A program made the position numbers and the translations under genes. From the NCBI GenBank assembly GCA_001321835.1, contig JPUR01000232.1, positions 1 through 12,293 on the forward strand: DNA of 12,293 nt, given 5' to 3'. The stretch's first letter is position 1, and each line of letters begins with the position of its first letter. This DNA comes from Marinosulfonomonas sp. PRT-SC04 (GTDB lineage Bacteria; Pseudomonadota; Alphaproteobacteria; Rhodobacterales; Rhodobacteraceae). The notes beneath the pieces are model-generated. The model had not been told where the DNA came from. It saw only the letters and a program-made list of their open reading frames with translations, and searched no databases. Shown piece by piece: positions 1 to 10,371 of the stretch.

Positions 1-1
1 A

Positions 2-154
2 CGCGAATTTCCAGAGTTGCGCAAACGCTATTGGGGTCAGCGGTTTTGGGCGCGGGGATATTTCTCGACCACCAGCGGAAATGTCACGGACGATGTGATA
101 CTTCAGTATCTGGAATTACATTCCAAACGGGAACCTACCGGCATCTGCCGGTAG
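2..154 (+). CDS. tnpA: IS200/IS605-family transposase TnpA, C-terminal 50 residues (cut by window start)
   Basis: This is the reading frame that starts at base 2 and stops at TAG 152-154. It encodes 50 residues with the family's C-terminal signature: a P-E-L-R-K-x-Y-W-G stretch, then F-W-A-R-G-Y-F, then a G-N-V-T turn and a helix holding Y-L-E-L-H. In Y1 transposases the nucleophilic tyrosine sits in this last helix, so Tyr36 of the fragment is the likely catalytic residue. The position four residues later is His here, where well-studied members have Gln. The HUH motif lies outside the window. The enzyme cuts and rejoins single-stranded DNA at the element ends. A REP-associated RAYT enzyme is a less likely alternative. 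The family call is from recognition of motifs, not a search. Confidence 0.8.
   Translation, partial: REFPELRKRYWGQRFWARGYFSTTSGNVTDDVILQYLELHSKREPTGICR
135..154 (+). repeat. IS right-end hairpin overlapping the tnpA stop codon
   Basis: CTACCGGCA (135-143), loop TC, TGCCGGTAG (146-154): a perfect 9-bp inverted repeat. It includes the last codons and the TAG stop of tnpA. The flanks GAAC (131-134) and GTTC (157-160) could extend the pairing after a 2-nt bulge. In the IS200/IS605 family such subterminal hairpins are the structures that TnpA binds on single-stranded DNA. There is no T-run, so it is not an intrinsic terminator. Confidence 0.75.
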
Positions 155-160
155 TCGTTC

Positions 161-595
161 AGTCGCTCGCAAGCCGTCGATATTTTCATCAATCATTATT
201 ACAAGCGCCCACGGGTGGCCGATTTGCCCAAAGCGTTACAGGCCTCGGTGTTTGATATGTATGTCAACGCTGGCGCCAATGCGGTAAAAATTTTGCAGCG
301 TTTGTTGGTGAAAATGGGCCATGCCATCGGGGTAGATGGTGGCATCGGACCGCAAACCATCACGGCGGCGCAATCGGCAATGGCGGCAGCGCCAAACCAT
401 CTGGCCGACGCTTACGGCATTGCACGGCGCAATTATTACTACGCCTTGGCGGATGCGCGCCCCGCCAGCCGAAAATACGCGTGCCGCCGTGATGGTGGCA
501 AGGGCGGCTGGATCAAGCGGGCCGAAGATTTCATCGCGCCAAGGTTTCACCTCACCGATTCTGAACACCGTGAAAGGACAGAAAAATGGGCTTGA
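161..595 (+). pseudogene. Holin-associated N-acetylmuramidase (GH108 endolysin, GTA lysis type), N-terminus removed by IS insertion
   Basis: In frame from the IS junction to TGA 593-595, the DNA encodes the rear part of a GH108/zliS-type muramidase. It begins S-R-S-Q-A-V-D-I-F, continues with an F-D-M-Y-V-N-A-G segment and a D-G-G-I-G-P-Q-T peptidoglycan-binding-like motif, and ends with the conserved R-R-N-Y-Y-Y and G-G-W-I-K-R-A-E segments (PG_binding_3 region). Missing is roughly the first 60 residues, which in this family carry the catalytic E-G-G glutamate. No convincing ribosome-binding site or start precedes the remnant, and tnpA stops just upstream, so it is very unlikely to make an active enzyme. 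With the holin behind it, the intact gene would be the endolysin that releases GTA particles by cell lysis. Whether the 5' half survives on the other side of the IS cannot be seen. Confidence 0.82.
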
Positions 596-1146
596 TTGAA
601 AAAATATTCACGCTGGTTTTTGGTGGCGGGCGCAATGTGGTGGTGCAAACGGCCGAAGTGTTCCGTGAGAACGCCGAAGCTGGGGCTGTGCGCAGTACCG
701 CTTTGCAAACCCAAGCGCTGACCCAACATGGGCAGGAGTTTATCCATGCGCAAGATGGCGGGTTTGATCGCTTTATGGACGGGATCAACCGGCTGCCGCG
801 CCCATTGTTGGCGTTTGGCACCTTGGGGTTGTTTGTCTCGGCTATGGTCGATCCGATCTGGTTTGCCTCCCGCATGCAGGGCCTTGCCTTGGTGCCAGAA
901 CCCCTGTGGTGGTTGCTGGGGGCGATCGTGTCGTTCTATTTCGGCGCACGCCATCAATTCAAAGGCCAAGCCTTTCAGAGATCAATCGCAGATACCATGC
1001 TGCGGGTACCTCAAGTGGTTGAAAACATTCGCAGTCTGAATGCGCTGAGCCCGAATGTGGCTGATCACAATATCGACAAACAGGCAACAAAATCGGACAG
1101 CAACGCCGCCCTGACCGAATGGTGGGCGGGGGCATCGCCCAACTGA
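586..1146 (+). CDS. GTA-type 3TM holin (PF11351-like)
   Basis: 186 aa. An amphipathic N-terminal half is followed by hydrophobic segments at about residues 72-88, 89-104 (weaker) and 106-120. The pattern P-R-P-L-L-A-F-G-T then D-P-I-W-F, and later W-W-L-L-G-A-I-V-S-F-Y-F-G, is typical of the 'GTA holin 3TM' family. The C-terminal 60 residues are polar and probably cytoplasmic. Holins make inner-membrane lesions that let the endolysin reach the wall; in Rhodobacter capsulatus a holin/endolysin pair of this kind releases GTA particles. The ATG overlaps the last 10 bp of the endolysin remnant. AAAGGA at 573-578 serves as ribosome-binding site, so the two were translationally coupled. The reading frame looks intact, but its natural promoter is probably upstream of the IS and its endolysin partner is broken. 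Confidence 0.85.
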   Translation: MGLIEKIFTLVFGGGRNVVVQTAEVFRENAEAGAVRSTALQTQALTQHGQEFIHAQDGGFDRFMDGINRLPRPLLAFGTLGLFVSAMVDPIWFASRMQGLALVPEPLWWLLGAIVSFYFGARHQFKGQAFQRSIADTMLRVPQVVENIRSLNALSPNVADHNIDKQATKSDSNAALTEWWAGASPN

Positions 1147-7545: not shown

Positions 7546-9606
7546 GTGCGGCAATTCCCCAACCTGATTGATCTGGTTCTGGGCCAGCGCGGGCATCTGA
7601 GCGCTTGGGTGCCGGTGTTTTTGGCCATCGGGGTCGGCACGTATTTTAGCCTGCCAACCGAACCTGATTCCGGTGCCTATGCAACATTGGCAGCGTTGAT
7701 GGTTGGGCTGGCAGCGGCTGCAATGTGGCTGGGTGATCGTCTGCGGTTGGTGTTTTTGGCTCTGCTGTTGATCTGCACGGGCCTGATGCTGGCGGGGACG
7801 CGGGCCAAAATGGTGGCGGAGCCGGTGCTGGGATTTCGCTATTATGGCCCGATCGAGGGGCGGGTGGTCAAGGTTGATCGCTCAAGGTCTGACAAGATGC
7901 GCCTGACGCTGGATCGGGTTGTTTTGGAACGCACGCCAACGTCGCGCACCCCTGCCAAAGTCCGTGTCACCCTGCACAGCAAGCAAACCTTTATTGCGCC
8001 CGAACCCGGCATGGTGGTGATTCTGACGGGGCATTTGTCAGCTCCGCAAGGGCCGGTGGAACCTGACGGGTTTGATTTTCAGCGGATGGCGTGGTTCATG
8101 AGCCTCGGCGCGGTTGGTTATTCGCGCACGCCGGTATTGATGCTGGAGCCGGTTGCGGCGGGGCAGGCGGGGTTGTTTATAAACCGGTTGCGGATGCAAA
8201 TTTCTGCGGGGGTTCAGGCGATCATCCCTGGGGATGCTGGGGCGTTTGCGGCGGCGATTATGACCGGTGATCGCTCGGGGATGCGGCGCGAGATGTTGGG
8301 GCAATTACGGGCCTCAAATCTGGCGCATTTACTGGCGATTTCGGGGCTGCATATGGGGCTTTTGACAGCGTTTGTGTTTGGGGCGTTGCGCTACGGATTG
8401 GCCTTGGTGCCGCTGGTCAATTTGCGTTTTGCGACCAAGAAGATCGCGGCCAGTGGGGCCTTGTTGGCGGGGGCGGGATATCTGGCGCTGTCTGGCGGCA
8501 ATGTCGCGACGGAACGCGCCTTTATTATGGTCGCCGTCATGTTGGTGGCGGTGTTGTTTGATCGGCGCGCTTTGACGTTGCGCGCGGTGGCTTTGGCGGC
8601 GATCATTGTGCTGATCCGTCGCCCGGAAGCCTTGACCGGGCCTGGTTTTCAGATGTCGTTTGCCGCCACCACCGCGCTGGTCGCGGTGTTCGGTGCCTTG
8701 CAGCACCTTGACAACAGCGCGGTGCCACGGCTGTTGCGCCCCGTTTTGGCGGTGCTGATTTCGTCGTTCGTCGCGGGGGCGGCGACAGCGCCGATTGGGG
8801 CGGCGCATTTCAACCAGATCGCCCATTATGGGCTGTTGGCCAATATGTTGACGGTGCCGTTGATGGGCATTTTGGTGGTGCCGGCGGCGGTGGTGGCTGC
8901 GGTGTTGTATCCGCTGGGATTGGCGTGGATTGGTCTGGGGATTATGCGGTTTGGGGTGGTGTGGATCCTCGGGGTTGCGCAGTGGATTGCGGAGCTGGAT
9001 GGTGCCATCAGCCATGTGGTGACGCCGATGCCGGTGGTGTTGCCGCTGATCGGGCTTGGAATGTTGTGGTTGATCTTGTGGCAGGGGCGGCTGCGGTATG
9101 TAGGGATTTTGGTGGCGCTGGTCGGGCTGGGGTTGTGGGGAATGACAACGCGCCCCGCCGTGCTGATCTCGCAAAGTGGTGGGCTGGTTGGTCTGATGGG
9201 GCCGCAGGGGCGTGCGTTGAGCAAGCCGCGTGGCGATAGTTTTTCGGCCCGAAACTGGCTGGTAAATGATGGCGATGCGGGGATTAAACAGGCAGATGCT
9301 GCGCAGCGGATCGGGTTTAGCGGTGAAAAAGGCGTGCGACGGTTTGAGGTGGGCGGGCAGCGGTTTGTGCATCTGACCGGCAGGGGCGCGCAGGCGCGTT
9401 TGATGGACGAATGTGTGGCTGGGCGCTGGGTGGTGACATCTGCTAAATTTGTGGGGGCAGAGTTAGATGGTCAGCGGGCTTGCACAATGATTGACGCTAT
9501 GTCGCTGAAGAAAACCGGCGCGCTGGCAATTTATTTGGATGAGGCCGGGCTGCGGGTGGTCACGACAAAGGCGCGGGTTGGGCACAGGTTTTGGAATTCC
9601 CGCTGA
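7546..9606 (+). CDS. comEC: ComEC/Rec2-family DNA uptake channel
   Basis: 686 aa inner-membrane protein that moves single-stranded DNA into the cytoplasm in natural transformation. In R. capsulatus it is also needed for uptake of GTA-delivered DNA. Order: N-terminal membrane segments (about 20-85), the soluble OB-like DUF4131 domain (about 95-205, with P-D-G-F-D-F 173-178), and the Competence domain (about 235-510) with the signature L-A-I-S-G-L-H-M (263-270). A C-terminal soluble part (about 535-686) follows. That part keeps only a weak resemblance to the metallo-beta-lactamase domain of Bacillus-type ComEC and shows no HxHxDH motif, as I expect for this alphaproteobacterial branch. Start: GTG with GAGGA at 7536-7540. 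An in-frame TAG at 7522-7524 closes the frame upstream, and the next ATG would cut into the protein. Confidence 0.93.
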   Translation: MRQFPNLIDLVLGQRGHLSAWVPVFLAIGVGTYFSLPTEPDSGAYATLAALMVGLAAAAMWLGDRLRLVFLALLLICTGLMLAGTRAKMVAEPVLGFRYYGPIEGRVVKVDRSRSDKMRLTLDRVVLERTPTSRTPAKVRVTLHSKQTFIAPEPGMVVILTGHLSAPQGPVEPDGFDFQRMAWFMSLGAVGYSRTPVLMLEPVAAGQAGLFINRLRMQISAGVQAIIPGDAGAFAAAIMTGDRSGMRREMLGQLRASNLAHLLAISGLHMGLLTAFVFGALRYGLALVPLVNLRFATKKIAASGALLAGAGYLALSGGNVATERAFIMVAVMLVAVLFDRRALTLRAVALAAIIVLIRRPEALTGPGFQMSFAATTALVAVFGALQHLDNSAVPRLLRPVLAVLISSFVAGAATAPIGAAHFNQIAHYGLLANMLTVPLMGILVVPAAVVAAVLYPLGLAWIGLGIMRFGVVWILGVAQWIAELDGAISHVVTPMPVVLPLIGLGMLWLILWQGRLRYVGILVALVGLGLWGMTTRPAVLISQSGGLVGLMGPQGRALSKPRGDSFSARNWLVNDGDAGIKQADAAQRIGFSGEKGVRRFEVGGQRFVHLTGRGAQARLMDECVAGRWVVTSAKFVGAELDGQRACTMIDAMSLKKTGALAIYLDEAGLRVVTTKARVGHRFWNSR

Positions 9607-9663
9607 GCATACCCTGAGGCGCGCTTTTGTCTGAAGTTGTATGGATTATTATGTTTCAACGCT
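9607..9663. other. Short gap between convergent comEC and lexA
   Basis: 57 bp with no hairpin followed by a T-run on either strand, so I see no intrinsic terminator for either gene. Read-through of each gene into the antisense of the other, or Rho-dependent ending, is possible. Confidence 0.4.
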
Positions 9664-10371
9664 TTAATAGGTGCGAATTAATCCAACCAAACGACCCTGA
9701 ACTTTGACTTGGCCCTCGGGCAGCAAGCGGGTTTCATAGGCGGGGTTGGCGGCCTCAAGCGCAATCATATTGCCCTTGCGCCGAAAGCGTTTCAAGGTCG
9801 CTTCATGACCTTCGATCAGCGCCACCACGATATCACCGTTTTCGGCCACCGAAGTCTCGCGGATCACCACCACATCGCCATCGTTAATGCCAGCATCAAT
9901 CATCGAATCGCCCTTGACCTCGAGCGCATAGTGATGCCCTTGGCCGGCCACCATCTGACCCGGAACCGCCACATTATGCGACACTTCGCTGATGGCCTCG
10001 ATCGGGGTGCCCGCCGCAATCCGGCCCATCACCGGCAGCTCGACGGCATACGCGGTGATCACCGCAAGTGCACCGCGCGGCGGATCAACCTTGTCACCGG
10101 TGATGACCAGCGGAGCAAAGCCAGGTGCTGCACCCGTTTGCGCCGCGCCCCCCAAGGCCTCCGGCAGTTTGATGATTTCGATCGCACGGGCCCGATGCGC
10201 CAGCCGCCGGATGAACCCACGTTCCTCCAGTGCCGTGATCAGCCGGTGAATACCTGATTTGGAGCGCAGGCCCAACGCTTCTTTCATTTCATCGAAAGAG
10301 GGCGGAACCCCGTCATTTTTCACTCGTTTATTAACAAAATCTAGTAATTCCAATTGCTTGCGCGTTAGCAT
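9664..10371 (-). CDS. lexA: LexA, SOS-response repressor
   Basis: 235 aa, the longer alphaproteobacterial form. The N-terminal winged helix (about 1-65) reads [10 protein letters not shown], then P-P-S-F-D-E-M, then [11 protein letters not shown] linker of about 40 residues follows, then the S24-type self-cleavage domain. The scissile bond is Ala120-Gly121 in R-I-A-A-G-T-P. The catalytic pair is Ser156 (K-G-D-S-M) and Lys194 (A-T-L-K-R-F). LexA represses DNA-damage genes and cleaves itself when bound to RecA filaments. GGAGAG at 10379-10384 (minus strand) is a good ribosome-binding site 7 bp before the ATG. The promoter carries its own operators, so autoregulation is expected. In R. capsulatus LexA also influences GTA production; that link is known from the literature, not shown here. 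Confidence 0.97.

Follow-up and report, generated by a model that had tools for sequence, protein, structure and literature searches.

Release of gene transfer agents (GTAs) costs the producing cell its life, and the start of contig JPUR01000232.1 from Marinosulfonomonas sp. PRT-SC04 raises the question whether a mobile element has naturally switched off this fatal step. In the window, i.e. the whole stretch of 12,293 nucleotides analysed here, we favour with good confidence the reading that an IS200-type element abuts codon 61 of a GTA-type lysis endolysin gene, the enzyme being most likely knocked out and the following holin probably silenced as well. The sequence event is secure, and we regard this IS-mediated loss of a GTA-type lysis endolysin as natural, real and probably recent. 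The features on which this reading is built are listed in Table 1.

Table 1. Features at the left end of the window.
Feature	Coordinates	Strand	Basis
IS200-type insertion sequence, right-end part	1..163	+	Conservation among 20 IS copies; remainder beyond contig
TnpA (Y1 transposase), C-terminal 50 codons and TAG stop	2..154	+	PF01797, NF033573
IS right-end hairpin	135..154	+	9-nt arms, 100% complementary, 2 nt apart
Endolysin remnant, codons 61-203 of holin-associated N-acetylmuramidase (GH108), catalytic front missing	164..595	+	PF09374, PF05838, NF040573, alignment
GTA-type three-TM holin, open, 186 aa	586..1146	+	PF11351

The leftmost part of the window belongs to the IS200/IS605 family. 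The TnpA piece matches the last third of the Y1 transposase profile (PF01797 Y1_Tnp, profile positions 82-119 of 121, E 1.8e-9), the HUH part of the protein lying beyond the contig, and it also matches NF033573 (E 6.9e-9), with a score under the cut-off of that model because the piece is short. A subterminal hairpin (arms at 135-143 and 146-154) near the right terminus at base 163 is kept in other copies of the IS family, and the predicted fold of bases 125-200 is more stable than that of 195 of 200 shuffled sequences (z −2.67). The left ends of eight other IS copies carry a hairpin and T-rich sequence. The nearest copy found resides on a plasmid of Octadecabacter arcticus (87% identity to window positions 2-163). 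Window positions 1-163 were matched in 18 of 293 relatives of the closest genome, G008, and in 16 plasmid records; G008 itself gave no match to the IS. The Y1_Tnp family was present in one of eight close genomes (G002), and a DNA search with the IS gave partial matches in G007 and G011 as well. The idea that the IS is foreign to the lineage is weakened by these matches, as at least a piece of such an element occurs in three of the eight close genomes. In the Marinosulfonomonas metagenome-assembled genome (MAG) G002, two contigs start within copies of the IS family, like the window (G002:C20:1-118 and G002:C1:11-95), which shows that such copies break assemblies. At G157:C24, L129 and L144, the right end of one IS copy is followed by left-end-like sequence of another, as if both were arranged head to tail.

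The position of the junction at base 163/164 is informative about its origin. For the alignment of IS right ends, 29 copies were fetched and 20 kept, after eight whose alignment ended before base 159 and one duplicate had been dropped; with 67-87% identity, the aligned copies are relatives of the window's IS and not the same element. Column 163 is a T in 18 of the 20 copies and holds 1.43 bits, column 164 holds 0.12 bits, and none of columns 164-180 exceeds 0.35 bits. Homology to the endolysin starts at R61, encoded by bases 164-166, and the right terminus of the IS coincides to the base with the resumption of the endolysin gene. This exact fit argues for a real transposition junction, since a chimera would give it only by accident. 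A window that starts within a mobile element, as the two G002 contigs do, might raise the suspicion that the junction is an assembly chimera or is present in a minority of the sampled population only. However, a chimera requires a shared repeat, and none links the IS to the endolysin sequence in the aligned material; together with the coincidence of the break with the terminus of the IS family in the 20 aligned copies, this makes the alternative very unlikely. Misassembly had been named as one possible refutation of the finding in a first-pass annotation, which had also described a TnpA tail and its right-end hairpin abutting the rear of the endolysin in the same frame. The latter description proved accurate. 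A TnpA-endolysin fusion was ruled out, because the TAG stop of TnpA (152-154) separates the two despite their shared frame, the remnant lying downstream of it.

The sequence that resumes behind the IS encodes the rear of an endolysin, most listed relatives of which are 203 aa long. It contains a complete PG_binding_3 domain (PF09374, positions 1-76 of 76) and only the rear of Glyco_hydro_108 (PF05838, positions 48-85 of 85), and 135 of its 143 residues are identical to the complete homologue P0003. The residues E15, G16 and G17 are invariant in 28 aligned full-length homologues; this front-end E-G-G(Y) catalytic motif falls within the missing codons and is absent from a remnant that begins at codon 61. 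A conserved EGGY catalytic domain is described for hydrolases of this class (PMC13284979). Six distinct solved sequences match P0003, and their best stretches start at residues 5-11, indicating that the lost stretch belongs to a known fold. Since the E-G-G motif is gone, this endolysin copy is very likely dead and devoid of muramidase activity. Nevertheless, the remnant scores 251.1 bits against NF040573 (cut-off 240, E 7.3e-75) over positions 56-200 of 200 (145 of 200), the front not being on the contig. It is best regarded as a probable leftover of this family, not as a working member, and, as it exceeds the NCBIfam cut-off, an automatic annotation would give it the name of a complete enzyme. 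Thus, the missing catalytic N-terminus of the GH108 enzyme, already noticed in the first-pass annotation, is confirmed by the profile matches, and the proposed GTA-type endolysin/holin pair is borne out by family models (NF040573 and PF11351). The statement in that annotation that the IS has split the gene needs to be narrowed: the gene is cut off at the IS, but its front is off the contig and may be deleted.

The front 60 codons would be located beyond the IS or would have been deleted with the insertion. When residues 1-61 of the closest homologue were searched against predicted proteins, 198 matches were returned. Among the best 120 of these, no companion front half was found and no IS-like tail was seen by eye; the closest of these 120 was identical at 50 of 60 positions, where approximately nine in ten would be expected from the comparison of the remnant with P0003. 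A 59-aa endolysin front piece (P0175) occurs on 30 contigs of up to 248,869 bases and may be a true truncation and not the effect of a contig end.

The holin is open, and its match to the Pfam family 'Holin of 3TMs, for gene-transfer release' (PF11351, E 2.1e-29) identifies it as a GTA-type holin. Over residues 1-179, it shares 84% identity with its homologue in G008. The holin starts, with an ATG, in the last 10 bases of the endolysin gene, and given this overlap both genes are probably co-transcribed. Of 80 fetched loci, 79 have a homologous holin 3′ of the endolysin. The motif TTAACC occurs at most 60 bases upstream of the endolysin in seven of eight close relatives and in 17 of 34 loci overall; in 2000 shuffles that preserved composition, the corresponding means were 0.11 and 0.37 and the maxima 2 and 4, figures that do not amount to a probability because the loci are related. 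In R. capsulatus, putative CtrA half-sites are reported in the promoter of the lysis genes (PMC9638019), and GafA is reported to bind the promoter of the lysis cassette (PMC6363796). Relatives retain a promoter region ahead of the endolysin; the IS would stand between such a region and the holin and, judged from this arrangement, probably cuts the holin off from its usual promoter. A search for terminator-like sites gave none at the hairpin, so that transcription from the tnpA side might continue into the holin and allow low expression. Combinations of a holin with a peptidoglycan hydrolase have been described as a minimal type 10 system (PMC13284979), so that the pair might serve protein secretion instead of GTA release. 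We consider such a function highly improbable, as the holin falls into the Pfam family for GTA release and R. capsulatus rcc00555/6 are placed within the GTA regulon (PMC9638019, PMC6363796), the link to the window being drawn via family models.

What loss of the endolysin would mean for the strain can be gauged from R. capsulatus. When rcc00555 is disrupted, gene transfer reportedly drops and particles stay trapped; the same paper notes that other conditions trap particles too and that the first report did not demonstrate lytic activity directly (PMC3423380). According to a later review, E. coli is lysed when the endolysin is over-expressed, and a knock-out releases less of the cell contents (PMC6209664). 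By analogy with the rcc00555 mutants, GTA-producing cells of the Marinosulfonomonas strain would not burst and their particles would stay inside, and failed GTA release is a likely consequence of the insertion.

Endolysin genes of relatives were compared in 195 genomes (G008 and relatives), many of which are drafts. The genomes closest by CcmF identity are G008 (88%), G007 (85%), and G003 and G009 (84% each). In a search with P0003, 116 of the 195 genomes gave any match and 101 a strong one, defined by an E-value below 1e-70. All 101 strong-match genomes contain an essentially full-length, stop-free copy that extends from residue 1-4 to residue 193 or beyond. The G153 copy is the one that ends at 193; another contig of this genome starts with a further piece (residues 164-202). 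No other broken endolysin copy was found among the strong matches in the 195 genomes, and interrupted copies are rare in this sample of genomes, many of them drafts. Two strong copies are present in eight of the 101 genomes (G003, G057, G063, G136, G140, G144, G154 and G163). The presence of the close relative G003 among them is in line with the alternative that the insertion is real while a second endolysin or another lysis route frees the particles and the loss is silent; XseA-mediated lysis of GTA producers, for instance, has been put forward as speculation (PMC9765227). Yet, only one strong copy was found in the remaining 93 genomes, several of which are MAGs and may be incomplete, and in R. 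capsulatus the loss of rcc00555 alone reportedly leaves particles trapped (PMC3423380). We therefore judge a silent loss rather unlikely and retain the knock-out of the lysis function as the preferred reading.

Further peculiarities of endolysin genes emerged from these searches. G003 is a Marinosulfonomonas MAG with two full-length endolysins (G003:C53 and G003:C74), the second being a true copy or contamination, and the holin beside the second one (L111) shares only 40% identity with that of the window. In a wider search of the family, 317 of 394 genomes matched the endolysin. Among the matches listed, an in-frame TAA in G514:C125:7832-8143 might represent a second natural knock-out. Endolysin-like proteins of 103-104 aa from ENA and other contigs share a common end about half-way (P0155-P0157, P0179-P0181, P0196, P0198, P0199, P0203, P0209-P0211, P0215 and others) and give the impression of a single lineage whose endolysin has decayed or been shortened; this form was not found as such among the matches listed for the 394 family genomes.

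The state of the remnant bears on the age of the insertion. Both the remnant and the holin have open reading frames, in agreement with the earlier remark that they show no further frame damage. Compared with relatives, the remnant has a dN/dS of 0.048-0.140 (seven valid pairs; a further pair yielded no valid dS), and the mean for the same region among relatives is 0.104 (28 pairs); for the holin, the values are 0.057-0.209 in comparison with relatives and 0.165 among them. Relaxed selection on the remnant was not seen by dN/dS, a weak indicator here as dS is near saturation. Because the remnant shows no further damage and its dN/dS is within the range of intact relatives, the insertion is probably recent.

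Named from their Pfam matches, the genes 3′ of the holin are ccmF, ccmH, enoyl-CoA hydratase, gltA, gltX, comEC, lexA and moeA. Among 76 loci with room, ccmF lies no more than 3 kb downstream of the endolysin in 60, and among the 60 loci with at least 9.9 kb of downstream sequence, comEC is present in 35 and lexA in 11. Lysis pair, comEC and lexA thus occur within one stretch of the window (1-1146 with 7546-10371). The comEC gene is open and encodes a Competence domain; ComEC is reported to be needed for the entry of GTA-delivered DNA (PMC10883770).

GTA genes of the close genomes are relevant to the alternative that the lineage has lost or is losing its GTA and that the IS is merely a sign of a lysis cassette decaying after it became useless. 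Pseudogenization and loss of GTA systems are reported for several alphaproteobacterial lineages (PMC10883770). GTA_TIM is missing from three of 12 close genomes (G002, G009 and G046) and Phage_TAC_11 from three of eight, genomes which may be incomplete. Moreover, G007 has two GTA_TIM copies, one intact and one with an internal TAA (G007:C1:1275219-1276109). On the other hand, GTA_TIM is present in nine of the 12 genomes and Phage_TAC_11 in five of the eight, the closest genome, G008, carries both on a single contig, and dN/dS revealed no relaxed evolution of remnant and holin. Decay of the whole GTA system is thus improbable in our view.

Given a knock-out that leaves the rest of the system in place, it is possible, if doubtful, that the strain is a wild receive-only GTA cheater, in which DNA uptake (comEC is intact) and GTA production are kept and self-destruction is switched off by the IS. 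As IS200/IS605 elements are able to excise without leaving a scar, this switch could even reverse within a population. In modelling, the cost of lysis outweighed the benefits that were tried (PMC6209664), and non-lysing cells have been argued to profit at the producers' expense (PMC10883770). A wild genotype with damage to the lysis enzyme only would make the idea of lysis cost and cheating testable. Listings of open-licence PMC papers showed no earlier case of a GTA endolysin interrupted by an IS.

Three known systems help to place the locus. The IS200 group of the IS200/IS605 family shares with the window's element the Y1 transposase, the subterminal hairpin and the conserved right terminus. 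Only its right 163 bases are in the window; its left end and left junction as well as the HUH motif lie beyond the contig. The RcGTA lysis cassette rcc00555/rcc00556 of R. capsulatus has the same order of a muramidase followed by a GTA-type holin, and in both cases the muramidase alone is lost. The R. capsulatus disruption was made in the laboratory, whereas that in the window is natural and caused by an IS; orthology is derived from family models and the phenotype is predicted from the analogy. Like pseudogenized GTA clusters, which have been proposed to be recent cheaters (PMC10883770), the strain would have lost a function required for GTA donation in the presence of the uptake gene comEC. 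Unlike in these clusters, the damage lies in a separately encoded lysis gene and would spare the producing cell. With the natural, IS-made knock-out of GTA lysis described here, we add a fresh example to a known kind of event and a candidate 'cheater' genotype.
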